Source: a virus. Taken from it: a DNA stretch of 43,778 nucleotides. Position 1 is the stretch's first letter, and every line of letters starts with the position of its first letter. The stretch lies in IMG/VR virus record IMGVR_UViG_3300025789_000070, positions 1 through 43,778 of that record; one strand, given 5' to 3'. Both the position numbers and the translations under genes were made by a program. The notes beneath the pieces are model-generated. The model saw nothing but the letters and a program-made list of their open reading frames with translations, made no database searches and had not been told where the DNA came from. Below are positions 9,402-42,870 of this stretch, piece by piece.

Positions 9402-9952
9402 TAAATTATCTCATCAATCAATCCTAATTTAAGAGCCTCTTTTGGAGATATATACCACTCTTCTTTTCTGAGTTTAATATCATCAAGTTTCTTCTTTGGT
9501 ATTTTAGAGCGTTCTAAAATAATAGAATCATACATATCTTGTAATCTACGACCCTCTTCAACTTCTTTATGATGAGTACTAAGTTTTGTGTCAGATCCTA
9601 TTTCCCAAGAGACTTCATGATACATTAAAGTAGATCTTTTTGACATTGATCTATGATGTCCTACACATAATATTGGTAGTGCCATAGATTGTGCTTGACC
9701 TAATATAGTAATATGTACTGGTATTTTTGAAAGTTCAATACAATCTATAAGTCCAAATCCTCTATAGACTTCTCCACCCTGTGAATTTATTATTAATTTT
9801 ATAGGTTCTAATTTTTCAGTAGGTACATTAGAATCTAATTCATTAATTTCTAATATTTGAGATATACAGTCATTTACATTCTCATCATCAATATCTCCTA
9901 AAACCACTATTCTACTTTGAGGTTTTTCCTCTTTTTTATTTTTAGAACTCAT
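9401..9952 (-). CDS. ClpP-like serine protease (S14)
   Basis: A 183-residue ClpP/crotonase-fold protease. Visible landmarks are LIINSQGGEVYRGFGL (the ClpP oxyanion strand), the nucleophile Ser89 in GQAQSMALPI, the catalytic His112 in LMYHEVSW, and the final EEWYISPKEALKLGLID. The third catalytic residue is normally Asp in a RDxF.S..EA motif; here the aligned position is Glu (E164 or E165). Length fits a single ClpP subunit without a long leader. In phages such enzymes serve as prohead proteases or act on host or phage proteins; no capsid gene lies next to it here, so the target is open. Confidence 0.85.
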   Translation of the reverse strand: MSSKNKKEEKPQSRIVVLGDIDDENVNDCISQILEINELDSNVPTEKLEPIKLIINSQGGEVYRGFGLIDCIELSKIPVHITILGQAQSMALPILCVGHHRSMSKRSTLMYHEVSWEIGSDTKLSTHHKEVEEGRRLQDMYDSIILERSKIPKKKLDDIKLRKEEWYISPKEALKLGLIDEII

Positions 9953-9999
9953 ATGATATTAATTTAGATAATAAGAACATATTAAATAATAATGAAATT

Positions 10000-11998: not shown

Positions 11999-12093
11999 TT
12001 AGACTGCATTATTATACCTAAATAATTTTTGGTTATCATTTTTTTATTATATTTTACTGTTATATATACTCAATATACTACTAAATAAGATTA

Positions 12094-12834
12094 TTATCCA
12101 TAATACGTGTAATTTTTTGTTTTTTCTCTTAATTCATATAATTTTGAAGAAAGATTTTTATCTTCAAAGTACTTTATCATTTCTTTATATGCATTATTAT
12201 TATAATCTGCTATATGAGCTTTATCAGAATTATCTTTAATACTCCCCCCTCCATAATGTATTACTGGAAGCCAATCACATACACCTATTTTCCAATTTTT
12301 TTCTTCACATACTATACCACTCATGACATCTTGCACCCATCCATATTGACTTCCAAAAGCTTTTACTTCTTCTATAAATTCTCTTTTTAATAATACACAT
12401 TGATAATCTACCCATGGGACATATCTTATTTCTTGAGAATTCCAACAATGCATTTGTGGCCAATAACATTGATCTTTTCCTGGTTGTATAATACAAGCTG
12501 AGCACATCATCAATTCGGGAATTGAAAAAAGTTGGTTTCTTAAATTTTTAATAAAATTATATCCGTGGATTATTAAATCTGAATTTAAGAAAAGAAGTGA
12601 ATCATATTGGGGATTTTCTAAAAAAAACTGAAATCCTATATCTAATCCGCCTCCATAATAACAGTTTTCTTCTATTTTATGTGTTGTATATTTACTTTCT
12701 TTTCCTTTATCGCTTCCATTATCAAAAACTAATAAATCATAATCATTATTTTCATATGGTTTTAATATTTCAAATAAAGTATCTGTATATTGGATTGAAT
12801 TATAGTGTAGTATTATTGCTAGTGTTTTATTCAT
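12094..12834 (-). CDS. GT2-family glycosyltransferase
   Basis: A 246-residue GT-A protein. DLLVFDNGSD (about residues 33-42) is the classic GT2 donor motif, SLLFLNSDL supplies the DXD-like site, and GWVQDVMSGIVCEEKNW carries the acceptor-site acidic residues. Length suits a single catalytic domain without membrane helices, so it acts in the cytoplasm. It overlaps the upstream gene by eight bases. Confidence 0.8.
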   Translation of the reverse strand: MNKTLAIILHYNSIQYTDTLFEILKPYENNDYDLLVFDNGSDKGKESKYTTHKIEENCYYGGGLDIGFQFFLENPQYDSLLFLNSDLIIHGYNFIKNLRNQLFSIPELMMCSACIIQPGKDQCYWPQMHCWNSQEIRYVPWVDYQCVLLKREFIEEVKAFGSQYGWVQDVMSGIVCEEKNWKIGVCDWLPVIHYGGGSIKDNSDKAHIADYNNNAYKEMIKYFEDKNLSSKLYELREKTKNYTYYG

Positions 12835-13492
12835 ATATATATTCGTTTATCGTGTACTCTTTAATATCTGCTTCAGCAACAAAAGTATGTATACATTTTA
12901 ATTTAGCATTAGGGTTAGAACCTATCCAAAATTCTGCTCCCATTCTTTTATGTATATAATTTTCATCTAAATATGAATTATCTAAAGACATTATATGTTT
13001 ATATTTAGACCACCAAAAATTTCCACTAAAATGAGGAAAATATCCTAAAAATGTATCTTCTCTATACAATGGACCTACACTATCATATTCATGTAATATT
13101 TCTATACATTTTTTCCATTCATAAATAACTTTATATTGTACTAATCTTCTCCATAAATTTTGAGATATAGAGTTATGAGTTATTCCTTTAGTATGAAAAT
13201 ATAATACATAATCATTTGGTTTTATTATTAATGGTATTAATCTTAAAGTATGCTTTTCATCTCCATTATCAAAAAAATGTAATTTTATTTTTGAATATTT
13301 TCCTACTAAGTTAATTATCCACTTTTTTTCTTCTTCTCCACCTACAATACCTATATGGAATTCTTGACAATATTTGTATAATCCTGAATTAAAAATATTA
13401 GTTAATTGTTCTGTTATAATATCTTTATAGTTATTAATTAGATAGGCGTGATAAAATAATTTTATATCTTTTTCCATATACCAATTCCACAT
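12827..13492 (-). CDS. Rhamnan-synthesis-like glycosyltransferase (FHTKG type)
   Basis: A 221-residue protein. YVLYFHTKGITHN followed by LWRRLVQYKVI matches the FHTKG...WR signature of a glycosyltransferase-like family linked to rhamnan and other surface polysaccharides, and GYFPHFSGNFWWSKY is the expected acceptor-side segment. The start may be ATG 13477 (MEKDIKLFYHAYL) rather than 13492, since the former gives a cleaner N-terminus. It overlaps the upstream methyltransferase gene. Confidence 0.65.
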   Translation of the reverse strand: MWNWYMEKDIKLFYHAYLINNYKDIITEQLTNIFNSGLYKYCQEFHIGIVGGEEEKKWIINLVGKYSKIKLHFFDNGDEKHTLRLIPLIIKPNDYVLYFHTKGITHNSISQNLWRRLVQYKVIYEWKKCIEILHEYDSVGPLYREDTFLGYFPHFSGNFWWSKYKHIMSLDNSYLDENYIHKRMGAEFWIGSNPNAKLKCIHTFVAEADIKEYTINEYIYE

Positions 13493-14091
13493 GTTGTTTT
13501 ATAAATAAATTCTAAACATTCACTATGTTTTATATCTTGCCATAATTTAACTACACCTGGACATGCAGTGCTAGCTATATCATGTAAAACTATATACCCG
13601 TTTTCTTCTAGTAAAGGTAAAGCATTATTATAATCAGTTTTAACACCTTCATATGAATGATCTCCATCAATAAAAATAATATCATATTTTTTATTACATT
13701 TAGTTAACCATTCATTACTATCAGTATCATAAAATTCTATTGTATTAGTTAAATTATTTTTCAACCATTTTATTTTTTCTACAATAGATTCTCTTTGATC
13801 TTGATGCCAATAAGAAGAGTTATCTATGGCTGTTGAAGATTCTAAATTTTCTTGAATAAAAGTTTCAATTAAAAATGATCCACCTTTACCAATTCCTATA
13901 TTTAAATAATTTTTAAATTTTTTATTTTTTAAGAACCATAAATATTCAATATATTCTTCAGGTACTTGTTGTATTTCTAGTCCACCTACATATAAATGAT
14001 CACCAAACCAACTATGATGATTAACTCCAGCTTCATTACATAACCAATAAAAAAGTTCATCTTTTGTAATTTTTTTTATATTTGGTATCAT
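13462..14091 (-). CDS. Class I SAM-dependent methyltransferase
   Basis: A 209-residue Rossmann-fold methyltransferase of the Methyltransf_24 / cephalosporin-hydroxylase-like group. YLNIGIGKGGSFLIE (about 63-77) is the SAM-binding motif I, and IIFIDGDHSYEGVKTDY with GYIVLHDI are the later motifs with the IDGDH signature. These enzymes often O-methylate sugars. It follows the C-methyltransferase gene after three bases, supporting a role in finishing the same glycan. Confidence 0.75.
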   Translation of the reverse strand: MIPNIKKITKDELFYWLCNEAGVNHHSWFGDHLYVGGLEIQQVPEEYIEYLWFLKNKKFKNYLNIGIGKGGSFLIETFIQENLESSTAIDNSSYWHQDQRESIVEKIKWLKNNLTNTIEFYDTDSNEWLTKCNKKYDIIFIDGDHSYEGVKTDYNNALPLLEENGYIVLHDIASTACPGVVKLWQDIKHSECLEFIYKTTCGIGIWKKI

Positions 14092-14094
14092 ATT

Positions 14095-15321
14095 TTAAAT
14101 AGTTTTTATGTTTGGTATTAAAATAATAAATTTTCCTTTATATTCTAAATTTAAAGATTTAATAATATAATCTGCAAAATTATGTGCTAAAATTAATATA
14201 TAATCTGGTTGTTTTTGTTTTAAAATACTTCTATTTACTATTTGAATACCTGTACCAGGAATAAATTTTCCTTGTTTAATATCAGTATCATCAATAACAA
14301 CATCAATATCATTATAGTCTAAATTCATTGCATTTAAATAAATGCACCCTTTAGCAGCTGCTCCAAATCCATAGATAGTTTTCCCTTCAGATTTTAATTG
14401 TTTAATAAAGTTTTTAGAATTAATAATATGTTTTTGGACTTCTTCTCCCCATTTAATATGATAATCTAAATCATACTTTTTTTCTAATTGAATATATTCT
14501 TCAATGGTGTTATCTACAGTATGTTTAGAATTAAATTTAGCTATTATAAGTCTTAGAGTACCACCATGTATATCTTGTTTAGTAATATTAATAATTTTCA
14601 TTCCATGTTTTTCCATCATCATTTTCATAGGAGTTATAGAATGATAAAATACATGCTCATGATATATTTGATCAAATTGATTAGTTTCCATTCCGCTAAT
14701 CCAATATGGAAATTCTAAAATCCAAATACCATTTTCAGTTAATAAATGTTCAACTCCTTTTGCAAAAGAATTTATATCTAATAAATGTTGAAATACGTTA
14801 GTAGAAATAATCACATCAGATTTTTTATCTAATTCTATAGCTATTTTATATGAAAAAAATTTAGTTAAACATGGAATATTTTTTTCTTTACACGCTAAAG
14901 ATAAATTTTGTGATGGATCTATATTTAATAAATCTAATACTTTATCACTTACACTTCTAAATGAATTAAGTAATGTACCGTCGTTACCACCAATATCAAT
15001 TATACTTGTATTATCTTCTATATTAATATACTCTTGAATATTTTTAAACATTTCTTGACAATGTTTAGAATATGGCTTATTTACTTCTGATTTAAATAGA
15101 TAATATGAAAACAATAATTCCCCATCTACAGCTATACTTAATGAAGATTCTCCTGATTTAGGATAATAATTTATATTTAACGGAAATTTTTGAGCATTAA
15201 TAGAGTCTTCTCTAGTATCACACAAATTATTAACTAATGGAATATTTCCTAAATCAAAATATTTTATTTGTTTATTATGCTCGGTTATTGGACATTTACT
15301 AATCACTGAGTAATTTTTCAT
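14095..15321 (-). CDS. NDP-sugar C-methyltransferase (TylC3/EryB3-like)
   Basis: A 408-residue protein with the three-part layout of the sugar C-methyltransferases: an N-terminal cysteine-containing putative zinc-binding segment (SKCPITEH and NLCDTRED), a SAM domain with IIDIGGNDGTLL near residue 108 and IYHEHVFYHS near residue 220, and a C-terminal domain with YGFGAAAKG near residue 318. The family transfers a methyl group to C3 of a deoxy-ketosugar nucleotide. It overlaps the reductase gene upstream by 23 bp, implying coupled synthesis of a branched deoxysugar. Confidence 0.8.
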   Translation of the reverse strand: MKNYSVISKCPITEHNKQIKYFDLGNIPLVNNLCDTREDSINAQKFPLNINYYPKSGESSLSIAVDGELLFSYYLFKSEVNKPYSKHCQEMFKNIQEYINIEDNTSIIDIGGNDGTLLNSFRSVSDKVLDLLNIDPSQNLSLACKEKNIPCLTKFFSYKIAIELDKKSDVIISTNVFQHLLDINSFAKGVEHLLTENGIWILEFPYWISGMETNQFDQIYHEHVFYHSITPMKMMMEKHGMKIINITKQDIHGGTLRLIIAKFNSKHTVDNTIEEYIQLEKKYDLDYHIKWGEEVQKHIINSKNFIKQLKSEGKTIYGFGAAAKGCIYLNAMNLDYNDIDVVIDDTDIKQGKFIPGTGIQIVNRSILKQKQPDYILILAHNFADYIIKSLNLEYKGKFIILIPNIKTI

Positions 15322-15976
15322 ATTTACTAATATTTAAACTAAAATTATTATTTGTTGGTTTTTTAATTGATTCAACTTTATTATACTTAGATGCATATTC
15401 AAATATAGTTTTAGCATGCGTTCCTATATTTAATATTCCAGTAATATCAGATTTTATCGCTTTTAATATCATTGGAGCTATAATATCAATATAATCTTTA
15501 CTAACTATTTGATTAGTCCATGCTTTTGTATATGGAAATTTATTTGAACCAAAACTAGTTCTAATTATTAAATGATTTGGATTCAATCTAACTGAGCACT
15601 CTCCTCCTAATTTTGTCCATGCATAATTATTATATGGCAGTATATGATCTATTTCTTTATAATTTCCACGTATTCCTGGATATATATAATCAGTAGATAT
15701 ATAGATTAATCTTTTATTATTCTCAATGCAATATTCAGATATATATCCAGTACCTATTATATTAGTTTTTATAGCAAGTATTGGATTTATATCTATATCA
15801 TGTGAATTAGTTATAGCTGCTGCATGAATTATAATATCTGGATTTATTGATTTTAATTTTAATTTTATATCATCTTTTGTAATATCAAAATCATTGCTAG
15901 ATAGTCCTATAATATTTGGATCTATTTTTTGTAATTCTCTACTTAACAATCCATTCTTCCCAGTAATTACTATCAT
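15299..15976 (-). CDS. rfbD: dTDP-4-dehydrorhamnose reductase-like protein
   Basis: A 225-residue short-chain dehydrogenase of the RmlD_sub_bind family. MIVITGKNGLLSREL is the NAD(P)-binding loop, YISTDYIYPG holds the Ser-Thr-Asp strand and YAWTKLGGE the catalytic YxxxK. Family members reduce the 4-keto group of dTDP-6-deoxy-hexulose. It is shorter than the usual 280-300 residues, missing part of the substrate domain. RmlA, RmlB and RmlC are not in this window, so the precursor would have to come from the host or elsewhere in the phage. It overlaps the next gene by four bases. Confidence 0.75.
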   Translation of the reverse strand: MIVITGKNGLLSRELQKIDPNIIGLSSNDFDITKDDIKLKLKSINPDIIIHAAAITNSHDIDINPILAIKTNIIGTGYISEYCIENNKRLIYISTDYIYPGIRGNYKEIDHILPYNNYAWTKLGGECSVRLNPNHLIIRTSFGSNKFPYTKAWTNQIVSKDYIDIIAPMILKAIKSDITGILNIGTHAKTIFEYASKYNKVESIKKPTNNNFSLNISKYEKLLSD

Positions 15977-16599
15977 ATTGTTTCGTATAATTTATTTTGT
16001 TTTTCTTGCTTTTCTATTGTTTTTGGGTGATATAATCTAAAATCATCTGGAAGCCTTGATACGTATTTAAAACCTTCTAGTCTTTCATGTACTTTTCCTT
16101 TCCAATATATCTCAGAAGTATTTTTCATGATACGTGACTGAAGATCTGGCCAATTAATTCTACTTTGATCATCTAGATTCCAACCCCATTTAGATATATG
16201 CTCCTTTGTTAAACCTTCTACTGTATTCCATCTTGGAATATAGTACAGATCTACTTCGGGATTCATTTCTAATATCATTGGTAGATATTCAATAATATCC
16301 TCATTTAAGTATTCATCAGCATCTATAAAAATAATATAATCCTTTTTACAAAAATTCTTTATATTGTTCTTGAAAGTGGCAAAATCTTTATTTAATGGAA
16401 ATTCTATAACTGTCCTATTTTGTACACCTTTTATAAATTCATTCGCCAGTAATTGTCTAACTGCAGCTGTTGCGCTTGTATCTATTTGAATAATGATCTC
16501 ATCGTCTAGTCCTATATGTGTCTCTAATTGCGTAATTAAGCGCTTTAATTCTTCATGTTCATTACATGCTGTGATTGCGTAACTTATTGTTGGTATCAT
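15973..16599 (-). CDS. GT2-family glycosyltransferase
   Basis: A 208-residue GT2 protein. It starts with a canonical ISYAITACNEHEELKRLI, has the metal site DYIIFIDADEYLNEDI at about residues 87-102, and a WKGKVHERLEGF segment typical of the WaaE/KdtX-like group of LPS core glucosyltransferases. Cytosolic, single domain. Part of the overlapping chain of sugar genes. Confidence 0.8.
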   Translation of the reverse strand: MIPTISYAITACNEHEELKRLITQLETHIGLDDEIIIQIDTSATAAVRQLLANEFIKGVQNRTVIEFPLNKDFATFKNNIKNFCKKDYIIFIDADEYLNEDIIEYLPMILEMNPEVDLYYIPRWNTVEGLTKEHISKWGWNLDDQSRINWPDLQSRIMKNTSEIYWKGKVHERLEGFKYVSRLPDDFRLYHPKTIEKQEKQNKLYETI

Positions 16600-17117
16600 T
16601 ATTTTCTTTTTATAAAAAGTAAATTTTTCTCCACATCCTCTTTCATTTCATATTCAGATTTATTTAAAATAGAATTTAATGCTATTCTATATAATCTATA
16701 TCTAATTTCATCTGTAGGATCTAAAGTTATATAATCTATTCCAAAGTGATTTTCATATGATTTTAGTAAAGGTAATATTTCATCTACAAAAATCTTAAGA
16801 TGTGTATTAAATACTTTTTCATCTGTATATGGTGGCTTATCATACTTTGGTTTATCATCTTTTCCAATCCAAAAAAACTTAACAGTTATTTGCTTATCTT
16901 CTACTCCTGGATTATAATTTACTTTTGTGTAATGCTTTATGTTGTGCTTATCATTAAAAGACCATATAGATGACCCTTGTTTTTGATAATTATATACACT
17001 ATCTAAGTCTATATTTTCTCCAATAAGCGTATATGATTCAAGCAATATTTTCTCTAAGATAGAAAATAGACTAAAATTGGAATTAGACTGTAAATTATTT
17101 AACTCTTGAGTTTTCAC
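16599..17117 (-). CDS. Hypothetical protein, GTG start
   Basis: A 172-residue protein read from GTG 17117 (VKTQELNNLQSNSNFSL). Longer starts at 17189 or 17183 would lie inside the HNH gene and encode sequence that is only the shadow of that gene's zinc-finger tail, so they are rejected. The C-terminus has a conserved-looking DPTDEIRYRLYRIALNSILN followed by a basic end. No family recognised. It sits directly downstream of the HNH gene and shares one base with the GT2 gene. Confidence 0.6.
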   Translation of the reverse strand: MKTQELNNLQSNSNFSLFSILEKILLESYTLIGENIDLDSVYNYQKQGSSIWSFNDKHNIKHYTKVNYNPGVEDKQITVKFFWIGKDDKPKYDKPPYTDEKVFNTHLKIFVDEILPLLKSYENHFGIDYITLDPTDEIRYRLYRIALNSILNKSEYEMKEDVEKNLLFIKRK

Positions 17118-22881: not shown

Positions 22882-23349
22882 TTAAAAGTTTGATGTTGAA
22901 AGATTTTTCATATAATCTAAAGTATTCTGATTTGTTATAGTATGAATATGCTTTATAGCCTCTTGATCTATAGGAATACATATATTATCAGTAACTAAGT
23001 GTTCTATTAAACTATCCTGAGTAATCATATTAGTAGGATCTAGTTCATACACTTTTCCAGAATATGGATTATTTAATTTATTAAGAGGTACTGCAATAAA
23101 ATAAGTTCTATAACTATTTCTAATCTTATTTAATTGATTTCTTTTAATCATAAAAGATTTATCTTTAATCATAGGTACTAGAGTTTTTACTTCTACATTT
23201 TTTCCATCTATAGTCATATCCTTTTCATGATCAAATGGATTTTCAGATAGTATTGTAATTATACCTCTTGAGTTAAAGTAGTTTGCTATGATCTTTTCTC
23301 CTAATGTACCTAATTCCTTATTCTTGTATTCTACTGATTTTGCATACAT
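22882..23349 (-). CDS. PD-(D/E)XK endonuclease-like protein
   Basis: A 155-residue protein. LGTLGEKIIANYFNSRG (helix with Glu), then ENPFDHEKDMTIDG and KNVEVKTLVP supply the E, D and E-x-K of a PD-(D/E)XK nuclease in the order seen in archaeal Holliday-junction-like and restriction-like enzymes. Length fits a minimal nuclease domain. It may cut branched or foreign DNA; the substrate cannot be read from sequence. Confidence 0.65.
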   Translation of the reverse strand: MYAKSVEYKNKELGTLGEKIIANYFNSRGIITILSENPFDHEKDMTIDGKNVEVKTLVPMIKDKSFMIKRNQLNKIRNSYRTYFIAVPLNKLNNPYSGKVYELDPTNMITQDSLIEHLVTDNICIPIDQEAIKHIHTITNQNTLDYMKNLSTSNF

Positions 23350-23351
23350 TC

Positions 23352-23435
23352 TTATTGAAAATTTAATTTATGTTTATAGTATGATTTATGCTTTTCTACT
23401 CCTGGTATATTCCAACCATTTTCAAAATCACTCAT
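23352..23435 (-). pseudogene. Duplicated 3' end of the TS-fusion gene
   Basis: This 27-codon stretch encodes DFENGWNIPGVEKHKSYYK, identical to residues near the end of the 605-residue TS-family protein (its gene ends at 24339), and then diverges. The DNA is also nearly identical over about 60 bp. It lies on the far side of the HNH gene, as expected when a homing gene and its target flanks are rearranged. Confidence 0.75.
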
Positions 23436-23520
23436 AGTATGATGCGGCTTGCTGTGCTATTAGTTTAAACATTTTACGAGGCGCGCGTGTCTTTGTACTA
23501 AAGTAGAGTAGTGTTATCAT
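23428..23520 (-). pseudogene. Truncated thioredoxin copy, active site lost
   Basis: From ATG 23520 the frame reads LLYFSTKTRAPRKMFK and stops at TGA 23428 after 30 codons. It aligns with the start of the thioredoxin at 22624-22875 (VLYFSTQTCTPCKMFK), but both active-site cysteines are arginine. DNA identity to the intact gene is visible. The remnant runs directly into the duplicated TS tail, forming a mosaic next to the HNH gene. Confidence 0.75.
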
Positions 23521-23531
23521 ACTTGTTAATT

Positions 23532-24215
23532 TTATTTATTTTTACAATTGTCTAAATGATATCTTTTCATATTAACTATTCCACCTTCTTTATTACAATG
23601 TAAGCATTTAATAATTTTTTGTGGATGAGATAGTCCTTTATTCCAAGTAGATTTTCCGTAATTTGGATTTTTATTACCAATTTTACATAAACTCATTTTA
23701 TTTTTTGTGTCATCTGATAATTTTCTATTTTTTAATTTACTAGGCTTACCAATCTGAGCTAAACTCATTTTATCTATAGTTTCTTGAGAATGTTTTTTTC
23801 CCAACCATTTTTTATTACCAATCTGAGCTAAACTCATTTTTAGTTTAGTTTCATTGGATAATTTTGACCCTGTTTTTTTATCTCTAGATAATTTTCTAGC
23901 ATATTCAATAATTCTTGAGCTGGGAGTATACCTACTTATTTTAGTAGATTCACACATAAATTGAAATGCGTATATTAATTTTTTATTATTTGGACTTATC
24001 TCACAAAGTAACCAATGACATAAAAAATGTTCTCTTGCGCTTAAAGGTGCTATATTCTCATCATCCCAATCATAACTATGACCATTACCACCTAAACATT
24101 CTGGAATAATATGATGTCCTTCGTAATATCCTCCATTTTTCTTATGTTCTTTTCTTTGAACTAATTCAGATTTTGCTCTTTGACAAATTTGATCGTATAT
24201 TCTTTGATAATTCAT
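23532..24215 (-). CDS. HNH homing endonuclease with NUMOD3-like repeats
   Basis: A 227-residue paralog of the HNH protein at 17125-17787, with the same start (MNYQRIYDQI), HNH core YYEGHHIIPECLGG, NUMOD3-like repeats (SLAQIGNKKWLGKKHSQET and relatives) and a final zinc finger CLHCNKEGGIVNMKRYHLDN. It lies between the TS-fusion gene and a mosaic made of a truncated thioredoxin and a duplicated TS 3' end, so it is probably the agent of that rearrangement. Confidence 0.85.
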   Translation of the reverse strand: MNYQRIYDQICQRAKSELVQRKEHKKNGGYYEGHHIIPECLGGNGHSYDWDDENIAPLSAREHFLCHWLLCEISPNNKKLIYAFQFMCESTKISRYTPSSRIIEYARKLSRDKKTGSKLSNETKLKMSLAQIGNKKWLGKKHSQETIDKMSLAQIGKPSKLKNRKLSDDTKNKMSLCKIGNKNPNYGKSTWNKGLSHPQKIIKCLHCNKEGGIVNMKRYHLDNCKNK

Positions 24216-24338
24216 AAAATGAAAAAGGTCCTGAAAAATATGCAGAGCTACTACCTTCTGCAGTTTTAGAGGACCAAATAAGTTTATTATAGATAATTAG
24301 TAGTAGTAATTCTCTATCTATAATAAATATCATGACTT

Positions 24339-26156
24339 TTATAATTTGCCCTGATCTTCAAATATTTTTTTAAATTTATAATAGGATTTATGCTTTTCTA
24401 CTCCTGGTATATTCCAACCATTTTCAAAATCTCTAAATGTATGTCCAGGTTTAATATAATATTCCCAAATTGGGTTTTTTATATATTTTAAAAAAACACA
24501 TAACAAATCCTCTAAATCCATCGGCTTCATATTATATCTCTCTGCTAATTTTATAAAATCCCCATATTTAAATCCTGGCTTTAGTATTTTCATTGAAGCT
24601 GTAGCAGTAGGACCTAATTTACAATGTGTCCACTCATTTATTTCAAATAGACCATTTAGTTTAGTGTCAAGATTTACATAATTTGCAAGATCTCCTGCCA
24701 TTAAAAGATAGTGGAAATTAAATGCATGGAGTTTATTATCTCTATTATACTCATTCATTATATCTACTATACCATCAAGACTAGTACCTGGTTTTATTTT
24801 ATCAATGATATGATCTGCCCAAGGTCTAAAATGATTTATTACTAGATCTTTTAGTGGATAACGTGGAGGTTGATTTACACAGCAGCTTACAAAATTTCCA
24901 GTATCTGCTTTCATAAAAGGATAAAAATCTTCATAAGAATTAAATCTTTGGAAATTCAATAATATAGTATTATTATATCCATGATTATATTGATTTGAAG
25001 TACCTGATCCAAATATTCTATGTGAGTAGATCAAGAAGAGATAATCATAAATTCCCCAATTAGGATTTGCTACTGGTTTATATAGATCCCAAGTGAGTGA
25101 ATTTTCTTGCATAAAATAATCTTCAAGCAAGAATATAAAGCCCTCATATCTTCTATCAATATTATGAAATAAATTTACATTATCTATATATTTATCTCCA
25201 GTATTAAATTCTCTTTTCTTAGTATCTATAAAAACTTTTTCTGTCTTTCGATTAATATCTATATAATAGTCAAGACATTCTAGAGCTATTGGATTAAATC
25301 CCTGTTCATTTAATATCACACTCTTCTTTGTAATTTTTTCTGTATCTTCAAGTTTATATACACTCTGAGATCCTTTAGACTCCTCTTGCTCTATTGATAT
25401 ATTATCTTCTATTTTACATTGATATTCTTGAGTCTCTTCATTTTTAAATGATACATAGCTTTGAGATACTGTAGTTTCCATATCTGGAATATCAGAGAAT
25501 TTCATATAGCTAGTTTGAGGTTTGATCTTATCATAATGTCTTGGATATATATGTAAATTTGTTATAAAAAAATGCATAGATCCAATTTCTAATCCCAATT
25601 CTGTATTGACTTTATTCATGAGCTTTGCAAAAGTATATTGATCATTGCAGAATCCCAGCCATAAATCAATACTTCTTGCGAATACTGTAAGATTAAGTCG
25701 ACCATCAACTATTGTGAAGTTTAATACAACATTACATGGAGTGTCTGAGGCATATCTGTCTAGCTCATTTATATCGTAATGAACTACTATCGCTCTTCTT
25801 GTATTCGGGTTGCTCTTGAGCTCCTGGATAGCACGATCTAACTGTCCATTTTTATTCCAAAAAAATCCATAATTACTATTCACTTCTGTAGTGCCTGGAA
25901 TCATCATGTTCTTCCATATCTTAGCACGTTCAGAAATTTCAGATGCGTCTCTATTTCCTGTTAAATACCAATGCCACTCATATTCTGCATAGTCTACATT
26001 AAACTTACGTTCTGGTTCTGTGATAATCATCTGCATTGGATTATCTAAAGTAAAAGAGGCATTAAATTTTGCTTTAGTACTAGCAAAATCTACCCCCGTA
26101 GACATTATATCTAAGTAAAGACTTTTAAATGCTTCATTTGCGTTTTTAAATCTCAT
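24339..26156 (-). CDS. TS/dCMP-hydroxymethylase-family fusion protein
   Basis: A 605-residue protein. Residues 1-215 are a thymidylate-synthase-family domain: NSNYGFFWN, catalytic Cys141 in DTPCN, RSIDLWLGFCNDQYTF at 161-176 and HFFITNLHIYPRH. At the position of the conserved TS Asn that selects uracil this protein has Asp172, as in dCMP hydroxymethylases, so the substrate is probably dCMP. Residues about 280-605 form a second domain (NVNLFHNIDRRYEGF, NTILLNFQRFNSYEDF, KLGPTATASMKILKPGF) that resembles the helical domain of the HMUDK / alpha-glutamyl-putrescinyl-thymine pyrophosphorylase group of DNA hypermodification enzymes; this is by pattern only. It overlaps the deaminase gene by 11 bp. 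Confidence 0.7.
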   Translation of the reverse strand: MRFKNANEAFKSLYLDIMSTGVDFASTKAKFNASFTLDNPMQMIITEPERKFNVDYAEYEWHWYLTGNRDASEISERAKIWKNMMIPGTTEVNSNYGFFWNKNGQLDRAIQELKSNPNTRRAIVVHYDINELDRYASDTPCNVVLNFTIVDGRLNLTVFARSIDLWLGFCNDQYTFAKLMNKVNTELGLEIGSMHFFITNLHIYPRHYDKIKPQTSYMKFSDIPDMETTVSQSYVSFKNEETQEYQCKIEDNISIEQEESKGSQSVYKLEDTEKITKKSVILNEQGFNPIALECLDYYIDINRKTEKVFIDTKKREFNTGDKYIDNVNLFHNIDRRYEGFIFLLEDYFMQENSLTWDLYKPVANPNWGIYDYLFLIYSHRIFGSGTSNQYNHGYNNTILLNFQRFNSYEDFYPFMKADTGNFVSCCVNQPPRYPLKDLVINHFRPWADHIIDKIKPGTSLDGIVDIMNEYNRDNKLHAFNFHYLLMAGDLANYVNLDTKLNGLFEINEWTHCKLGPTATASMKILKPGFKYGDFIKLAERYNMKPMDLEDLLCVFLKYIKNPIWEYYIKPGHTFRDFENGWNIPGVEKHKSYYKFKKIFEDQGKL

Positions 26157-28369: not shown

Positions 28370-30019
28370 TTACATACCCATGCCCATCATAGGATCTGGA
28401 GTGTCTTGCTCTTTATCTGATTTTTTTTCAAGTACCACGGCATCTACTGTGAGTATTGTACCAGCTACACTCGCTGCATTTTTTATAGAAGATATTACTA
28501 CTTTTGTAGGATCAAGTAGACCAGCTTCAATACCATTTACTACTGCTCTATTTTTAGCATCAAATGTTGTAAATGCATCGTCTTTAGAATTTACATTATA
28601 TAAAATTTCATACCAATTCTCAATACCTGAATTTGATAGAATTGTTTTAAATGGCGCATAGCAGGCAGTTTCTACTATAGAAAGAGCAATCTTTTCATTT
28701 GAATTCCAATTTATAGTATTATTCTTTATAGACATAAATGCTTTGATAAGTGCAATACCACCGCCTGGAAGTATACCTTCTGCAAGTGCGGCTTTAGTCG
28801 CCAGAAGTGCATCTTCTACTCTGTCTTTCTTTTCTTTGATCTCAATTTCAGAATTTCCACCTACATTTATAATAGCAACTCCACCTACAAGTTTACCAAG
28901 ACGCTCTTGAAGTTTCTCTTTTTCAAAAAATGATGTTGCACTTTCTATCTGCTCTTTAATCTCATTTGCTCTATTAGAAATTGCTGTCTCATCCCCTTTA
29001 CCATCTACTATTGTAGTAGTCTCTTTAGCTACTGTGGCAAGACGTGATTTACCTAGATATTTATCTAATTCTGAAGATGAGAGTTTATCAAGTTTATGTC
29101 CTTTGCTTTTTGACATTACTGTACCTCCAGTAAGAATTGCCATATCTTCAAGAATCAAAGTTCTTCTATCTCCAAAGTCTGGTGCTTTTACTGCACATAC
29201 TTTTACTACATTTCGCATTTTATTTACGATCATTAGTGCGAGTGCCTCATCTCCAAAATCTTCTGCAATTACTAGAAGTGATCTATTTTCAGTATTTGCT
29301 TTCTGTAAAAATGGAATCATTTCAGCTGCAGTTTGAATACGACCATCATAGAGCATAATATAGCAATCATCTAGTACTGCATTCATTGTAGTATTATTAG
29401 TCACAAAATATGGACTCTTATATCCACGATCAAATTGCATACCTTCAACTACTTCAAGAGTAGTTTCACCGGTCTTAGATTCTTCAATAGTCACAATACC
29501 TTCACGACCAACTTTATCTATAGCAGCAGAAATCAGCTCTCCTACTTCAATATCATTATTACCTGAGATAGTTGCCACTTGTTTAATTTGATCTTCTGTG
29601 CTGACATCTACTGATAGTGATTTAAGTTGATCTATAATCATAGTGACTGTCTTATCAATACCGTGCTTAACTTCTACTGCATTAACTCCTTGACGTATAG
29701 TCTTCATACCTTCACTGATCATAGTAGCTGCCAATAAAGTTGAAGTTGTAGTACCATCGCCAGCTTCATTTGCAGACTTAATAGAAACCTGCTTTACCAT
29801 CTGAGCCCCAATATCTTCGATATCATTCTCAAGCCTATTGTAGCTTTTTGCAACTGAAACTCCATCTTTAGTGGCTTTTACTTCACCATAAGGTTCACGT
29901 ATTAGTACTGTTCGTCCACCTGGACCTAATGTAGATGATACTGTCTTATTTAATTTCTCAATACCAGCAAGAAGCTGCTCTTTAAGTTCTGTTCCGAAAA
30001 CGCTATTTGTTGTACTCAT
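28370..30019 (-). CDS. groL: GroEL-like chaperonin
   Basis: A 549-residue full-length type I chaperonin subunit. The N-terminal equatorial domain has [14 protein letters not shown] and the ATP-site [14 protein letters not shown]. The apical and second equatorial domains follow, with [15 protein letters not shown], and the tail ends MMGMGM like bacterial GroEL. It folds proteins in the cytoplasm in a 14-mer with GroES. The gene for GroES lies one base upstream, so a phage-borne folding machine with its own cap is made. Confidence 0.97.
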
Positions 30020-34241: not shown

Positions 34242-34925
34242 CTATACTGCTATCTCACATGCATTTCCAGCACATGCCACTTGATCCTTAAGATCTGTAT
34301 TATCATCTGACTCTATTACTTTTGATAAGTCTATATTTGTCAATGATTTCATCATCTCTTCATATTTCTCCTTAGTGCAATCTTCAAAAGGTGCTTGGAT
34401 ATATGTATGATCTGAAAATGGAAGTACTGAAAGTCCATTATAACAATTCTTATTCTCCCACATCCAATTACCAACTTCCTCCCACTCATTATCTTTAATT
34501 GATACTGTTGCAGAAATATTATGCGTATTTTGTCCAGTGATATGACCAGGCTTAATCCAATATTCGTAAAAATGTTTTACTCTATCTAAAAGATCTAATG
34601 CTGATTCTGTTCTTAATATTGACCCTTGTGGAGCTCTTTGAGGTACTGATATTACTGCTGTATCATGTGGTCTAAAGTATTCATCTTGTACCAGCTCTGG
34701 ATGATATATGCTTAGATATGTATAGATTGCTTCATTCTTACCTACTCTTATATTCCTGATATAATATTCATTATGCCACGCATGTATGCCAGAAGATGTG
34801 CCCAGGACTAAAGAGGAGGTGTTATGAACCACAGATTTATTTTTTAGTTGATATGTATGAGTATTATCTACTTCTATGTCAACAGTAAATTTATTTCCAG
34901 ACTTTGTTATCTTTTTAATTTTCAT
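34242..34925 (-). CDS. nrdJ: C-terminal split intein plus C-part of ribonucleotide reductase
   Basis: A 227-residue protein in two parts. Residues 1-35 are an intein C-fragment: KFTVDIEVDNTHTYQL (block F) and KSVVHN (block G, His-Asn), with Thr36 as the +1 residue. Residues 36-227 are the C-part of a class II reductase: LVLGTSSGIHAWHNEYYIRN continues the TTIKPSG sequence that ends the N-half, and CAGNACEIAV at the end is the redox cysteine tail. Splicing with the product of 35161-36771 would rebuild an enzyme of about 619 residues. Confidence 0.9.
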   Translation of the reverse strand: MKIKKITKSGNKFTVDIEVDNTHTYQLKNKSVVHNTSSLVLGTSSGIHAWHNEYYIRNIRVGKNEAIYTYLSIYHPELVQDEYFRPHDTAVISVPQRAPQGSILRTESALDLLDRVKHFYEYWIKPGHITGQNTHNISATVSIKDNEWEEVGNWMWENKNCYNGLSVLPFSDHTYIQAPFEDCTKEKYEEMMKSLTNIDLSKVIESDDNTDLKDQVACAGNACEIAV

Positions 34926-35160: not shown

Positions 35161-36771
35161 CTAATAATTTACAATATCATCACTATCTTCCAATTCATCT
35201 GCTCTAATCCACCCTCTATTTTTAGTTAAAAATTTATGATTTGCTGTAACTGTAACTACCAAGCCATCTTCAAACTCTACATCAAATGTTTCTTCTATTC
35301 CATTAATGTATAATTTATTAATTTGTTGCCATTCATCATTTAAGTCTTTGACTTTTATATCTTCTGTTACTTCTAAAAATAGCTTTTCATTATTCTTAAA
35401 ATCAAGTAAATCATATCCATTTGCTTTAAATATCTCTTCTAATGAAAGAATTCCTTTATTTGTTATTATTTCAGTTTCAGGTACCATACACCCACTGGGT
35501 TTTATTGTAGTACAACGAGCAGCAGAATTAATTCCTATGATTTTAGCCACCTCTAAATTAGTGCTTTTTACTATATTTGAGGCCATTTCAAGATCTAAAT
35601 TTTGAACAACTCCAGATCCAATACCAGTCATACCAACTCCTATAAGTGCCTCTTTTTCTGTAGTTCTCTGCCAAACTGATCTAAGATAGTGGAAATTTGT
35701 ATAACCAGCTTGCAATGTTCCAATTAGCGCGGCAGCTTTAACTCTTTTATTAAGATCTGCTTGATCTACTACATCTGATACATTTACTTCACATAAATTA
35801 CAAAATTGAAAAGGGCGTAGTGCAATTTCACAACACGGGTTTGTACCCCAATCTTTATCATTATTTAAGTAGATACCAGGCTCTCCACTGCCTGAATTTT
35901 TAATCTTATCCCAAAGACTCATAAAGAATTCTTTGGTTATTTTATTTCTAAGAAGTACTGCTGAGTTATTTGCTCTGCCACGTTGAGGATTAAGTTCCCA
36001 CCAATTTCCAGATTTACAAGAAATCATTTCATCATCATCAGCAGAGAATAGAGAAATCAGCGCAGCTCTACGAATGCCTCCGGCTAATACTGCATCTGCA
36101 ATATGACACACCATATCATGCACTTCTATTGAAGATAATTTATCCCCATTCTCCTTTTGACTTAATATGCTCTCTAATTTAAATAGACACTCTTTTAGTG
36201 GTTGAGGTCCTGGCGCTTTACCTCCCGAAGTAACAAGTGCTGCACCTTTAGGTCTAATATCAGAGAAATCAAATTCTAGAGATGAGCTGCCTTCAAAATA
36301 AGATTTTACTAGAGCTTTTACTGCATCTGCCCAGCCTTCAATAGAATCATTGATTAAGAATCTCTTTTTTCTCTTTTTATTTGGAAGTTTTATCTCTGGT
36401 AACTTTTCTACGTGATGTTTTTGTACTGAAAATCCCACTCCAGTTCCACCTAGTAAAAGAAACATAGTCTCTGAAAATGATCTATAATCATCTATAGGCA
36501 GATACGCGCAGTTATAAATTCTATTTGGACTGATTTCGATAGACTTTCCTCCAAATTGAAGGCTTCTCATAGAAGGAAGTACTTTCTTATCATAAACTAA
36601 TTCATATGCATCTTCAATCTCTTTAGTTAATTGAGGGTACTTTTTAAGATGCATTTCCATGTTTCTCGTAACTAGATCTTCCCAAGTCTCTCTTCTTTGC
36701 AATTGCGGCAGATATTTTGAGTATTTCATATATACTGTAATATCTGATAATATTTTTTGTTCTATATTCAT
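35161..36771 (-). CDS. nrdJ: N-part of class II ribonucleotide reductase plus N-terminal split intein
   Basis: A 536-residue protein. Residues 1-427 are the N-part of a B12-type (class II, NrdJ/RtpR-like) reductase: YNCAYLPIDDYRSF, LLLGGTGVGFSVQ, GTNPCCEIALRPFQFCNLCE with the active-site cysteines, and CTTIKPSG at the junction. Residues 428-536 are an intein N-fragment: Cys1 in CMVPETEIITNKGILSLEEI (block A) and VTANHKFLTKNRGW (block B, TxxH), ending with a stop after DDIVNY. The partner is encoded at 34242-34925. Class II enzymes make deoxynucleotides without oxygen. Confidence 0.92.
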   Translation of the reverse strand: MNIEQKILSDITVYMKYSKYLPQLQRRETWEDLVTRNMEMHLKKYPQLTKEIEDAYELVYDKKVLPSMRSLQFGGKSIEISPNRIYNCAYLPIDDYRSFSETMFLLLGGTGVGFSVQKHHVEKLPEIKLPNKKRKKRFLINDSIEGWADAVKALVKSYFEGSSSLEFDFSDIRPKGAALVTSGGKAPGPQPLKECLFKLESILSQKENGDKLSSIEVHDMVCHIADAVLAGGIRRAALISLFSADDDEMISCKSGNWWELNPQRGRANNSAVLLRNKITKEFFMSLWDKIKNSGSGEPGIYLNNDKDWGTNPCCEIALRPFQFCNLCEVNVSDVVDQADLNKRVKAAALIGTLQAGYTNFHYLRSVWQRTTEKEALIGVGMTGIGSGVVQNLDLEMASNIVKSTNLEVAKIIGINSAARCTTIKPSGCMVPETEIITNKGILSLEEIFKANGYDLLDFKNNEKLFLEVTEDIKVKDLNDEWQQINKLYINGIEETFDVEFEDGLVVTVTANHKFLTKNRGWIRADELEDSDDIVNY

Positions 36772-37084: not shown

Positions 37085-38461
37085 TTATTTTGATAATTCA
37101 AAGAATTTTTTACTTAATATTGCTTTTTCTTCAGAAGATAATCCTGTTTTATCTTGAGTTTGAGCTGATGCTGCTGCCATGGTTCTGATTTCTTCTTCAG
37201 TTAGTTCTTTATCATCTATTTGTATAAACCCATTATCTGTGTCTATTATAGCATTATATGTCATGCCATCACTACCATATCGGTTTTTCATAATATGTAC
37301 TCTACCAGTTTTATTGATCTTATCAGCTCGTTTTCTTGATAACGACATAATAAAATCTGCAATCATGATCTTATTATATGAACCAGCAGCCTTGTCTCCT
37401 TCTACAATATCATCTTTAGCGCCTTGACGATTAACTTGACTTACTGACCATATTGGAGTATTAAGCTCTCTTGCCATGCCTTTTATTGCAGTATACACAT
37501 CATCTATTTCATCTTTTATTTCACCGCCAACTCTCTTCGACTTTAATAGATCTATATAGTCGATAATGATTAGATCTGGCTTGTGTCCCATGTCTGTGCA
37601 CTTTCTAATATGAGATTCTACTGTATTTACAGTAGTTTTACCCATCGGGTATTCTGCAATAGTTAATCGACCTGGGAGATTGCTTACTACCTCTTCTACC
37701 TTCTCTCTATGTAAGTGTATTTCTTTAAATCCTATTCCTGTAAATACTGAGTCATATCTTTTACCTGTGTAGATGTCTGATAGTTCTAATGTATAATGAT
37801 TTACTGTTAAACCATTCTTTACAGCCTCTGCTCCCAAATTTATTAAAAACCATGATTTACCTGAGCCTGGTCCACCAAATATAATACCAAGATCTCCTCT
37901 TCCTAGTCCACCCATAAGATGATCACTTATATTCTTCCATGGAGTTGGTACTGCCCGTCTATCATCTTCTCTATATCTTTGTTCAATGTCTTGAAGATAC
38001 TCGTGTCCTATATTTTTATCAGATCCTGCTTTTAATGCACGGTCAATAATAATTCGTATGTCTTCAAATTGACCTTTAGACAGCAGATCTACTGAATTAA
38101 GTAGTGCTTTTTTGAGTTGTTGATTTTTACAAAAATTAGAAAATTCCTGCTCAATATAAAGATGATCCTCATTTGATGCTTTAAGTGCCTCCTTAACCTG
38201 TTCTGCTACTGAGATTTTAAGCACTTCATTTTGTATCTTCTTTACTTCTACTTGTAAAAATTCTATAGATGGATTTGTATGATATTTGAAATAGTACCTT
38301 AAAGTCTCTTTAACAATCCATTGTGATGCTGGACTATCAAACATCTCTGGCTCTACAACATCACTGATATTCTGTAAAAATTCTCTATGTTTTAAAAGAG
38401 AATTAAGAACTTTTGTTTGAAAACCAGACCCATAAGAATTTAAGGAGTTTAATTGACTCAT
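37085..38461 (-). CDS. DnaB/gp41-like replicative helicase
   Basis: A 458-residue hexameric helicase. Residues 1-150 are a helical primase-interacting domain. The RecA-fold has Walker A GGPGSGKS (196-203), Walker B LIIIDYIDLLKS, and WSVSQVNRQGAKDD as the H3/sensor region. SLSRKRADKINKTGRVHIMK carries the arginine-finger region. It unwinds DNA ahead of the family A polymerase. It lies seven bases downstream of the FEN nuclease. Confidence 0.93.
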   Translation of the reverse strand: MSQLNSLNSYGSGFQTKVLNSLLKHREFLQNISDVVEPEMFDSPASQWIVKETLRYYFKYHTNPSIEFLQVEVKKIQNEVLKISVAEQVKEALKASNEDHLYIEQEFSNFCKNQQLKKALLNSVDLLSKGQFEDIRIIIDRALKAGSDKNIGHEYLQDIEQRYREDDRRAVPTPWKNISDHLMGGLGRGDLGIIFGGPGSGKSWFLINLGAEAVKNGLTVNHYTLELSDIYTGKRYDSVFTGIGFKEIHLHREKVEEVVSNLPGRLTIAEYPMGKTTVNTVESHIRKCTDMGHKPDLIIIDYIDLLKSKRVGGEIKDEIDDVYTAIKGMARELNTPIWSVSQVNRQGAKDDIVEGDKAAGSYNKIMIADFIMSLSRKRADKINKTGRVHIMKNRYGSDGMTYNAIIDTDNGFIQIDDKELTEEEIRTMAAASAQTQDKTGLSSEEKAILSKKFFELSK

Positions 38462-38468
38462 AACTTTT

Positions 38469-39497
38469 TTATTTGTATTTTGCTATTTCGTTAAAATTTG
38501 TATATAACCAAGATTGTAAATTTGTAATGCTTGCTCCTAGTTGATCTTCATTATATAGAGAAGTAAATATTGCAGGTTCATATCCTTTATTAGGATTTTG
38601 TATCATTGAGTCTATTTCAATCTTTGAATCTTCTGGAATATTAGGTTCATCTAAATCCATTAATTGTCTATTGATCTCTAATTGATTTTTAAAAGCGTAT
38701 ATCTTTTGCAATATTGGTACTTCACTATCTTTGCATTTGTTTATAATATGCTCTAGATTAATAGTACGTAATTCTCCTAATTCTGGAAAATGCTTTAACA
38801 AAGTCTTAGGACCTAATCCTTTAACTCCAGGAACATTATCGCCCTTGTCTCCAAGTAGTATCTTCTGAGTTAAGAAATTATTAGATGTGACTTCGTACTC
38901 ACTTAAGACGTCTTTTGGAGAATAGAATTTTTTCTTTGTTGGAGAGTAAATACTTATTCTATCTGATGCTAGCTGTAGATAATCTCTGTCTGAAGACATA
39001 ATAGTTACCTCTTTTCCTATATGTTTTGCTATATATCCTATGACATCATCTGCCTCTATCTTGTCTATTGATAGTAGATCTACTGGAAGACATTTGAGAT
39101 AGTCTATGAGCCTCAGAAGCTGGTTTTTAATAGCATCAGATTCTTCATCTTGTGAATCAAATATATCCCAATTTGTAATGCGTTTTACTCCTCGATTGGC
39201 TTTGTATTCAGGGTAGAGGTAGCGCTTATTTGTAGAACTACCTCTACCATCGAATACTATTATGACACGTGTTGGTCTTACTAGTCTCATCCCATATGCC
39301 ATAGACTTAAGAAACCCTGTTAGTGCTCCTATATGCTGCCCTGCTGGATTTACATGCTGGATCATTGCAAAGGATCTTAGAAAGTTGTTGAGTTAAAGAC
39401 CGTCGACTATGAAAACCTTTGAATTCAGGCTTAAGTCGACGGTCTGTGTATTATTTTGTGAAAGATCATTTATCATTTCTGCATATCTACTATTCAT
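38469..39497 (-). CDS. FEN/RNase H-like 5'-3' exonuclease with in-frame TAA (possible programmed bypass)
   Basis: The frame from ATG 39497 to 38469 (343 codons) encodes a FEN-type nuclease interrupted once, at codon 35, by TAA (39395-39393). Before it lies NSKVFIVDGL, after it L-NNFLRSFAMIQHVNP; together they form the standard N-terminus VDGLNNFLR whose Asp binds metal. Later motifs are RVIIVFDGRG, YPEYKANRG, DKIEADDVIGYIA, MSSDRDYLQL and the H3TH loop GDKGDNVPGVKGLGPKTLL. Starting at Met 39365 would lose the catalytic Asp. The codons at the break are CTT-TAA-CTC, both Leu, directly after a 12-bp stem. It removes RNA primers in replication. Confidence 0.8.
39397..39445 (-). promoter_or_regulatory. 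12-bp stem-loop before the in-frame stop
   Basis: Perfect inverted repeat AGACCGTCGACT / AGTCGACGGTCT with a 25-nt loop, inside the coding sequence of the FEN nuclease. In the mRNA the 3' arm ends two bases into the CTT codon that precedes TAA. Its GC-rich arms are out of character for this AT-rich gene. It fits a recoding or translation-pausing element. Only three U follow, so it is a poor intrinsic terminator. Confidence 0.75.
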
Positions 39498-39513
39498 ATT
39501 ATAGATTTAATTT

Positions 39514-40605
39514 TTAAGAATCTTCAGTATCAAATATATCATTCTTTGATGGATCTTCTTCTTCTACAATATCAAATGTTTCAGAACCCAATATCTTTGT
39601 CCACTCATGAGAATATTCATTTTTATATTTATTTATCGCCGATAGAGAATCATCAATAAAACCATGTGCTGTCATTATGACTTTGCCTACGGCCGTAACA
39701 CCTGTTATATGATTTTTATCGCAGGAAATTCTAGTTCTCTTAGCAAATTCTACGTCTTTTCCGTTTTTTGTAGCTTTTATTTTATTAGTACCCGCCTTTG
39801 AAATATTCCCAAAAGTGATTACAAGAGTGGCATCAAAATACATAGTATTACCTCCTTTATTCTGTAAAGTTGGTTGTCCCATTGGGTTATCTGGTTTTGC
39901 AACCCATACTTTATTTATAGCTACAAGGGTATTAGTATATGGTTGACTTTCTTTTCTTGACATAATAATACGCTGATTGATGAAGTTGCCAAATTGAGTT
40001 GACATAGCACCTGCCGCCCATTCATTATTATTAGTGGATTTTTCTATGCTCAGACGGCAAGGTATTGATCCTACAGAATCCCAAAAGAAGCAAATATTAT
40101 ATGGTAGATTACCCTTCTTCTGCTCGTCTAATATGTCTGCCATGAAACCTGCCACATCCTCTATGCACTGCGTCTTCTCTCTATCTACATAGATAAAAAA
40201 TCCGCTATAATCTACTACTTCCCCAGTCTCTTGATTAACTACTTCATCAAATTGCAAACCCATTGTCTTAGCATGATCCCAAGACCACTTCATCTCAGTA
40301 ATTATAAACACTGGTAATATTCCAAGTCTTTGAGCACTAACAGCCGCTTCAAGTAGAGCGGTTGTCTTTCCTGTATCACTATGACCTCTAAGCAGAGTAA
40401 TATGACCCATAGGAATACCTGGAATTTGTAATGTGTCTTTAAAAGCACTCGAGAGTGGAATCCACCTAGTCTCTTTAAACTTTACTGATGTTGATGCGAG
40501 GTTTTTTGACTTTTTAAATTTGTCAAGAGGTGATATATTACTATCTGATTTGATAGCATCTGAGAGCGCTCCAGTAAGCCCCTCTTTTTTCTTTGTTGTT
40601 GCCAT
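39514..40605 (-). CDS. uvsX: UvsX/RecA-like recombinase
   Basis: A 363-residue strand-exchange protein. Walker A is GHSDTGKT (74-81), the Walker B region is NICFFWDSVGSIPC, and NKGGNTMYFDATLVITFG is the RecA loop/L2-like segment. An acidic tail (IVEEEDPSKNDIFDTEDS) is like that of T4 UvsX. It forms filaments on ssDNA for recombination-dependent replication and repair with the gp32-like protein encoded 17 bp upstream. Confidence 0.88.
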   Translation of the reverse strand: MATTKKKEGLTGALSDAIKSDSNISPLDKFKKSKNLASTSVKFKETRWIPLSSAFKDTLQIPGIPMGHITLLRGHSDTGKTTALLEAAVSAQRLGILPVFIITEMKWSWDHAKTMGLQFDEVVNQETGEVVDYSGFFIYVDREKTQCIEDVAGFMADILDEQKKGNLPYNICFFWDSVGSIPCRLSIEKSTNNNEWAAGAMSTQFGNFINQRIIMSRKESQPYTNTLVAINKVWVAKPDNPMGQPTLQNKGGNTMYFDATLVITFGNISKAGTNKIKATKNGKDVEFAKRTRISCDKNHITGVTAVGKVIMTAHGFIDDSLSAINKYKNEYSHEWTKILGSETFDIVEEEDPSKNDIFDTEDS

Positions 40606-41967: not shown

Positions 41968-42870
41968 TTATTTATAAATAGTCCCTTTAATATCTCCACC
42001 TTGTTGAATTATTATATTTTTAATTTCTTCTTTAGTGTATTTTTTTGAGATAGGAGTATTACTTAAATCTAAATACACTCCTACTTTTAAATTATCTGGT
42101 AGTGAAGTTATAGGAGTATGATTTAAATATAAACTCCCTCCTACTTTTAAATTATCTGGTAGTGAAGTTATTTTAGTACCACTTAAATTTAAATTCCCTC
42201 CTACTTTTAAATTATTTGGTAGTGAAGTTATAGGAGTATCACTTAAATTTAAACTCCCTCCTACTTCTAAATTATCTGGTAGTGAAGTTATAGGGGTATT
42301 AGTTAAATATAAACCCCCTCCTACTTTTAAATTATCTGGAAGTGAAGTTATTTTAGTACCACTTAAATATAAACCCCCTCCTACTTTTAAATTATCTGGT
42401 AGTGAAGTTATAGGGGTATTAGTTAAATATAAACCCCATCCTACTTTTAAATTATCTGGAAGTGAAGTTATAGGAGTATTACTTAAATCTAAATACCCTC
42501 CTACTTTTAAATTATCTGGTAGTGAAGTTATAGGAGTATGATTTAAATATAAACTCCCTCCTACTTTTAAATTATCTGGTAGTGAAGTTATAGGAGTATG
42601 ATTTAAATATAAACCCCCTCCTACTTTTAAATTATCTGGAAGTGAAGTTATTTTAGTACCACTTAAATATAAACCCCCTCCTACTTTTAAATTATTTGGT
42701 AGTGAAGTTATAGGAGTATCATTTAAATCTAAATCACCTTTAGACCCGTCTTTTATATATTGCTGTATTTTCTTTTGAATTGAAATTTTATAATTCTTTT
42801 CACGTTCTTCTGAGGAACGTCTTGGAATTAGTATATTCTCCTCTTTTAAGAAAGAAATTAATTTTATCAT
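41968..42870 (-). CDS. Leucine-rich-repeat protein with capsid-type leader
   Basis: A 300-residue protein. Residues 1-10 are MIKLISFLKE, a leader ending L-K-E. A basic helical linker follows (SSEEREKNYKISIQKKIQQY). Residues 47-275 hold 11 full 20-residue repeats plus a partial one, of the form LYL.(N/G)T.ITSLPDNLKVGG, the short bacterial LRR type also found in IpaH/SspH effectors. The last 25 residues form a charged cap. The gene starts one base inside the stop of its upstream neighbour. A near-identical second copy begins at 43632. It may bind a host protein. Confidence 0.75.
   Translation of the reverse strand: MIKLISFLKEENILIPRRSSEEREKNYKISIQKKIQQYIKDGSKGDLDLNDTPITSLPNNLKVGGGLYLSGTKITSLPDNLKVGGGLYLNHTPITSLPDNLKVGGSLYLNHTPITSLPDNLKVGGYLDLSNTPITSLPDNLKVGWGLYLTNTPITSLPDNLKVGGGLYLSGTKITSLPDNLKVGGGLYLTNTPITSLPDNLEVGGSLNLSDTPITSLPNNLKVGGNLNLSGTKITSLPDNLKVGGSLYLNHTPITSLPDNLKVGVYLDLSNTPISKKYTKEEIKNIIIQQGGDIKGTIYK
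42046..42732 (-). repeat. 60-bp tandem repeats coding LRRs
   Basis: About 11.5 head-to-tail units of 60 bp, each with the near-invariant core ACTTCACTACCAGATAAT on the coding strand. Units differ at a few codons, so the array can change by slippage or unequal exchange. It is coding and should not be read as CRISPR. Confidence 0.9.

Follow-up and report, generated by a model that had tools for sequence, protein, structure and literature searches.

A candidate natural stop-hop in a mobile, homing endonuclease-linked 5' segment of a phage FEN nuclease gene

The window, a stretch of 43,778 nucleotides analysed over its whole length (IMG/VR virus record IMGVR_UViG_3300025789_000070), contains a gene for a FEN-type 5'-3' exonuclease on the minus strand (38469..39497; PF02739 and PF01367). 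Its upstream neighbour encodes a UvsX/RecA-like recombinase (39514..40605, minus; phrog_97) and its downstream neighbour a DnaB-like replicative helicase (37085..38461, minus; phrog_19). Read from 39497 to 38469, the FEN frame is 1029 nt long and has a single internal stop, its 343 codons including this TAA and the final stop. The TAA is codon 35 (39393..39395, minus) and is preceded by a CTT codon for Leu 34 (39396..39398, minus) and followed by a CTC codon at position 36 (39390..39392, minus), the site reading GTC GAC GGT CTT TAA CTC AAC AAC TTT. Both the frame broken only at codon 35 and the two flanking leucine codons had been pointed out in a sequence-only reading of this DNA; the sequence confirms them, and the Pfam match bears out the continuity of the frame. 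A six-frame search of the window gives a PF02739 match that spans the TAA and covers model positions 1-163, and the match likewise runs uninterrupted across the stop in six related contigs. The stop is located in the conserved catalytic region of FEN. In an alignment with Taq 5' nuclease, the Asp in the KVFIVDG segment 5' of the stop falls on the N-terminal VDG, which places the conserved N-terminal metal-binding Asp of FEN upstream of the stop. The six-frame PF02739 search finds no second FEN-type match in the window or in any of the six related contigs, so that no back-up copy of FEN is seen. When the window and two related contigs were scanned for stops between matched codons, the FEN site was the only one within a conserved domain, the remaining cases being gene-gene junctions. 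TAA terminates 30 of the 37 genes counted in the window, and a change in the genetic code is ruled out because TAA is a normal stop here. Annotation would give a truncated FEN protein of 298 aa starting at 39365, but the product may be full length if the stop is passed.

Several other features of this phage group were seen. The ribonucleotide reductase of the window (35161-36771 and 34242-34925) looks split by a split intein, with an intein-like N-terminal sequence at the end of the first part and an intein-like C-terminal piece at the start of the second. The window also encodes a GroEL-like chaperonin (28370-30019; phrog_5725, E 5e-136) and a repeat protein (41968-42870) with units of about 20 residues, ITSLPDNLKVGGxLxLxxTP, related repeats being present in relatives. 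The near-identical phage contig L117 has 17 tRNA genes and a tmRNA at 9732-16814 (RF00023, 62.2 bits; predicted tag ANVELSTWTFEDAMAFADGEFAMAA).

A stem-loop detected by folding and by an inverted-repeat scan lies directly upstream of the FEN stop (39397..39445, minus) and consists of 12 perfect base pairs and an inner 6-bp helix. Its arms, AGACCGTCGACT and AGTCGACGGTCT, extend from 39445 to 39397 and end at the second base of the CTT, in agreement with the earlier statement that a perfect 12-bp stem ends inside this codon; the 3' arm covers the coding for IVDG and runs two bases into the take-off codon. Perfect stems of at least 12 bp with a loop of at most 40 nt occur three times in the 43.8-kb window, the FEN stem among them. 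The 91-nt strand containing it folds at -26.4 kcal/mol as compared with a shuffled mean of -10.2 (z = -6.97), and none of 200 shuffles folds as well. In 11 intact relatives the corresponding stretch folds more weakly, at -6 to -18 kcal/mol, through other pairings, which mostly do not extend to the codon. These relatives (L005-L010, L015, L016, L018, L019 and L021) have neither TAACTC nor a strong stem at the site, whereas the stop-bearing copies have both, indicating that stem and stop co-occur. The alignment of homologs that had been proposed as a check on the site thus separates copies with the insert, which have TAACTC and the stem, from copies that lack all of it. Rfam contains no known RNA matching the window, L011 or L004.

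The interrupted site recurs. CTTTAACTC and the stem are present in nine further IMG/VR contigs, and a tenth contig, L091, reads CTTTGACTT. A FEN protein search yields 80 loci, nine of them with TAACTC and the stem, and exact DNA scans recover the same nine contigs and add L091. Since the ten contigs carry eight sample identifiers, a sequencing error or a single-isolate mutation is ruled out, and the insertion or disabling mutation private to this isolate that had been offered as an alternative is not borne out. Several of the contigs compared are metagenome fragments. A degenerate scan of viral contigs for D-G-L-stop-L-N-N-F with TAA or TGA gives 18 matches, 10 of which are the FEN site and eight unrelated frames, and the same scan with TAG gives a single, unrelated match. 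None of 80 distant FEN genes taken as a second sample has an internal stop, and no copy of the interrupted site is found in the bacterial genomes searched, where the single FEN relative has 29% identity. Within the window group, the part of FEN 3' of the stop shows no nonsynonymous and 0-2 synonymous differences. All interrupted copies come from closely related phages, which are possibly recent recipients of the allele, so that there may have been little time for purifying selection to show.

The L091 allele has changed at the site itself, which lies 123 nt from the end of that contig. L091 and L002 differ at 4 of 3106 positions, three of them within 8 nt at the site, and these three changes (TAA to TGA, CTC to CTT and AAC to AAT) produce CTT TGA CTT AAT AAC, in which the take-off and landing codons are identical. 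Stop, leucine, asparagine, matched codons and frame are all conserved, and the chance that all three identities survive is 0.008 for random substitutions and 0.07 for transitions only. Since the chance of three of the four differences clustering within 8 nt is about 7e-5, the changes are probably a single conversion event from an unseen allele, and they should accordingly not be counted as three independent tests. The allele points to selection acting at the site and speaks against a tRNA specific to one stop. Another variant, L004, has a 2-nt deletion at about 1230-1245 in the 5' end of FEN, so that the usual start is no longer in frame and FEN needs an alternative in-frame ATG, that of MIFHKIIHTVDLS. 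L004 keeps the stop site and a 10-bp version of the stem despite this deletion.

A comparison between lineages suggests how the site has moved. A 119-nt segment (39379..39497, minus), extending from the FEN start to 11 nt past the landing codon, aligns without a difference between the window lineage and the L011/L013 lineage (119/119 nt), whereas from the downstream ATG on the window and L011 lineages match at only 684 of 894 positions (76.5%), indicating that the 5' end of FEN travels as a cassette. An HNH homing endonuclease gene (phrog_655, E 2.6e-34) is inserted between UvsX and FEN in L004, L011-L014 and L020, and is thereby immediately upstream of FEN in six of the 11 interrupted copies. 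The window has no endonuclease gene here; its junction between the UvsX-like gene and FEN, AAATTAAATCTATAAT (39498..39513, minus), matches the sequence 3' of the L004 endonuclease gene and is a probable scar of a lost endonuclease. The same position is occupied by an unrelated 192-aa ORF in L001 and L003 and by a 71-aa ORF in L002 and L091; the latter was considered as an endonuclease remnant and dropped because it has no family match. Endonuclease and stop are not strictly coupled, since L007 has the endonuclease (98% identical) together with an intact FEN without the stop. The L007 FEN reads GTG GAC GGG TTG AAT AAT at the site, and its many synonymous changes may be an alternative escape from cleavage. 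Members of the window group differ at 0-1 of 1023 nt in FEN and at 29-36 positions in the downstream genes, and the L004 FEN has six differences, four of them in the 5' segment. Such low diversity of FEN relative to its neighbours is as expected for a recent sweep by conversion.

Homing endonuclease-type genes are also associated with other features in the window and its relatives. An HNH homing endonuclease gene (23345-24215; phrog_655) is located right after a thymidylate synthase-like gene (24339-26156), and vestigial C-terminal coding of the latter, FENGWNIPGVEKHKSYYK, is found 3' of this endonuclease. A structured leader recurs, mostly before homing endonuclease-type genes, and comprises a stem, TTTATTATAGATAG/CTATCTATAATAAA, a second hairpin, CTTATTGGNCC...GGNCC, and then TTTTATTTTATG. 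It is present at 24283-24327 of the window (minus, before 24215), before the endonuclease of L011 and L004, and in L031, L121, L122 and L123. Seven different sequences occur in loop 1 of the leader (GGGCAAT, CTACTAC, CCTGCATG, CCGTAAT, CTAGGAA, ATCCGAC and GCGGAAT), and in 8 of 8 distinct copies 7-8 nt of the loop are complementary to the second hairpin, which gives the leader the appearance of a covarying kissing-loop RNA; Rfam has no match for the copies in the window, L011 and L004.

The architecture of the FEN site, its presence in further contigs, the variation among its alleles, its transfer from lineage to lineage and the genes around it are seen directly, and from them we infer a hop, a role for the hairpin and protection from cleavage. 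Our preferred reading, with moderate confidence, is that a mobile cassette carries a natural and very short translational bypass, or stop-hop, at this site. A ribosome on the FEN mRNA would halt with peptidyl-tRNA-Leu on CUU while its A site contained UAA C or UGA C; the tRNA-Leu would then release and re-pair six nucleotides further on at CUC or CUU, so that nine nucleotides would be read as one leucine and the product would contain VDGLNNFLRSF as in every close relative. A near-identical phage contig encodes a tRNA-Leu with the anticodon UAG, which is able to read CUN codons. Behind the ribosome, the hairpin, whose 3' arm extends into the CUU, would fold again and draw the mRNA from the exit side, favouring forward movement; because the stem overlaps the take-off codon, part of it could re-form only if the mRNA moves forward. 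The interruption would be retained because a homing endonuclease that inserts immediately 5' of FEN would lose its target, and the FEN 5' end with its stop and stem would spread by co-conversion. The bypass suggested in the sequence-only reading is thus consistent with the site, the stem, the spacing, the second allele and the endonuclease context, and the joined product is a prediction from the sequence. Whether the cassette carries the first natural in-frame stop-hop, kept while its stop and its landing codon both changed, we would put at an even chance.

The sharpest rival to the hop is that homing spreads a gene which no longer works. The 6-nt insert would disable FEN and at the same time shield the cassette from the endonuclease, the allele being copied into recipients without any protein being made, and FEN would perhaps be dispensable, with 5'-nuclease activity coming from the host. 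Such a broken allele would account for the cassette transfer and for the low FEN diversity, and it gains from the observations that PF02739 is common in the bacterial control genomes and that T4 rnh is not essential. However, a broken gene gives no reason for a stem found only together with the stop, for matched leucine codons or for a TGA/CTT/AAT variant that retains all three identities. Neither a second stop nor a frameshift has appeared downstream in any copy, and the NSKVFIVDG coding 5' of the stop is intact, though it would be useless. Spread of a broken allele is therefore unlikely.

Readthrough, in which a near-cognate or suppressor tRNA would decode the stop and add two residues (X-Leu) after VDGL, agrees with the open frame beyond the stop, and termination is weak in the contexts UAA C and UGA C. 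In a survey of 160 FEN loci in two samples, the motif is present in 159, nine of which have the stop; in each of the 150 intact relatives, a spacing of exactly 7 separates the Asp from the Arg in the helix that comes next. A hop would preserve the spacing of 7, whereas readthrough would alter it to 9. In addition, the occurrence of both TAA and TGA would require different decoders, no tRNA encoded on a 75.6-kb fragment of a near-identical phage shows a suppressor anticodon, and the matched leucines are left unexplained, making readthrough very improbable.

Termination at codon 35 followed by re-initiation at the ATG at 39365 would produce a 34-residue peptide and a 298-residue protein, cooperating or not. 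This ATG is 27 nt downstream of the stop, and split genes following homing endonuclease insertion are known (T4 39/60 and Aeh1 nrdA). In intact relatives, however, the same ATG simply encodes the internal Met of FAMIQH and has a similar context; the long product would lose LNNFLRSFA, which is conserved in close relatives, and the metal-binding Asp would be left on the short peptide. The L091 changes in this stretch are moreover synonymous, and production of two polypeptides appears highly doubtful. An RF2-like +1 or -1 frameshift at CUU URA C is ruled out: the L091 heptamer CUU UGA C is an exact RF2 shift site (PMC5009743), but the +1 frame of the window reads N-S-T-T-F and then stops, and FEN is encoded by the zero frame and by neither shifted frame. 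As far as sequences can test them, the hop fits the evidence better than readthrough, frameshifting or a downstream start.

To our knowledge, bypassing in bacteria and their viruses is essentially one case, T4 gene 60, whose 50-nt insert has been proposed, with mobA, to break a homing endonuclease target. The FEN site may be classed as working like a gene 60-type bypass rather than as a proven member of that class. In gene 60, matched codons, a stop after the take-off codon and a stem are combined with mobA, an HNH homing endonuclease gene that lies upstream (PMC3014915). The first three elements, named as shared in the sequence-only reading, are all found at the FEN site: the matched codons are CTT/CTC in the window and nine contigs and CTT/CTT in L091, the stop directly 3' of the take-off codon is TAA or TGA, and the 5' stem-loop is the 12-bp stem ending in the CTT. 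The two systems also have in common the upstream HNH gene, present here in the six copies described above, and an insert that is missing from other relatives. The 5' stem-loop of gene 60 is thought to be a motor, pairing as the mRNA exits the ribosome (PMC5009743), and further stimulators of its bypass have been described (PMC11194080). The systems differ in the gap, which is about 50 nt in gene 60 and 3 nt, one in-frame stop codon, in FEN; in the amino acid, glycine there and leucine here; and in the gene and the phage group. Gene 60 further needs a nascent-peptide signal, whereas no KKYK-type signal is found in the FEN N-terminus, MNSRYAEMINDLSQNNTQTVDLSLNSKVFIVDGL, where signals of other kinds are possible.

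Synthetic stop-hops are inefficient as a rule. Those made over matched codons in E. coli have been reviewed (PMC5009743, reference 54 therein), and according to the same 2016 review a natural in-frame stop-hop was not known. The synthetic cases are test constructs, whereas the FEN site lies in a natural gene, with a hairpin, in several phages. The FEN complex, in which UAA C or UGA C follows CUU, resembles the bacterial RF2 (prfB) shift site, CUU UGA C (PMC5009743), and in L091 the take-off codon, the stop and the following base are identical to it. RF2 uses a +1 shift with a Shine-Dalgarno stimulator, whereas only the zero frame is sensible in FEN. The byp elements of Magnusiomyces capitatus mitochondria are similar in that short inserts in coding sequences are neutralised by bypassing; they differ in that mitochondrial ribosomes pass 81 block inserts, apparently independently of mRNA context (PMC5009743). 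If the stop-hop is real, it would be a second, far simpler bypass system with natural alleles, TAA/CTC, TGA/CTT and no stop, through which the minimal needs of a ribosome for codon skipping could be asked. T4 gene 60 would then exemplify a general strategy, with homing elements disrupting their own target site and relying on ribosome bypass so that the gene hosting them stays functional, and bypassing tied to homing endonuclease biology would be a repeated outcome rather than a curiosity.
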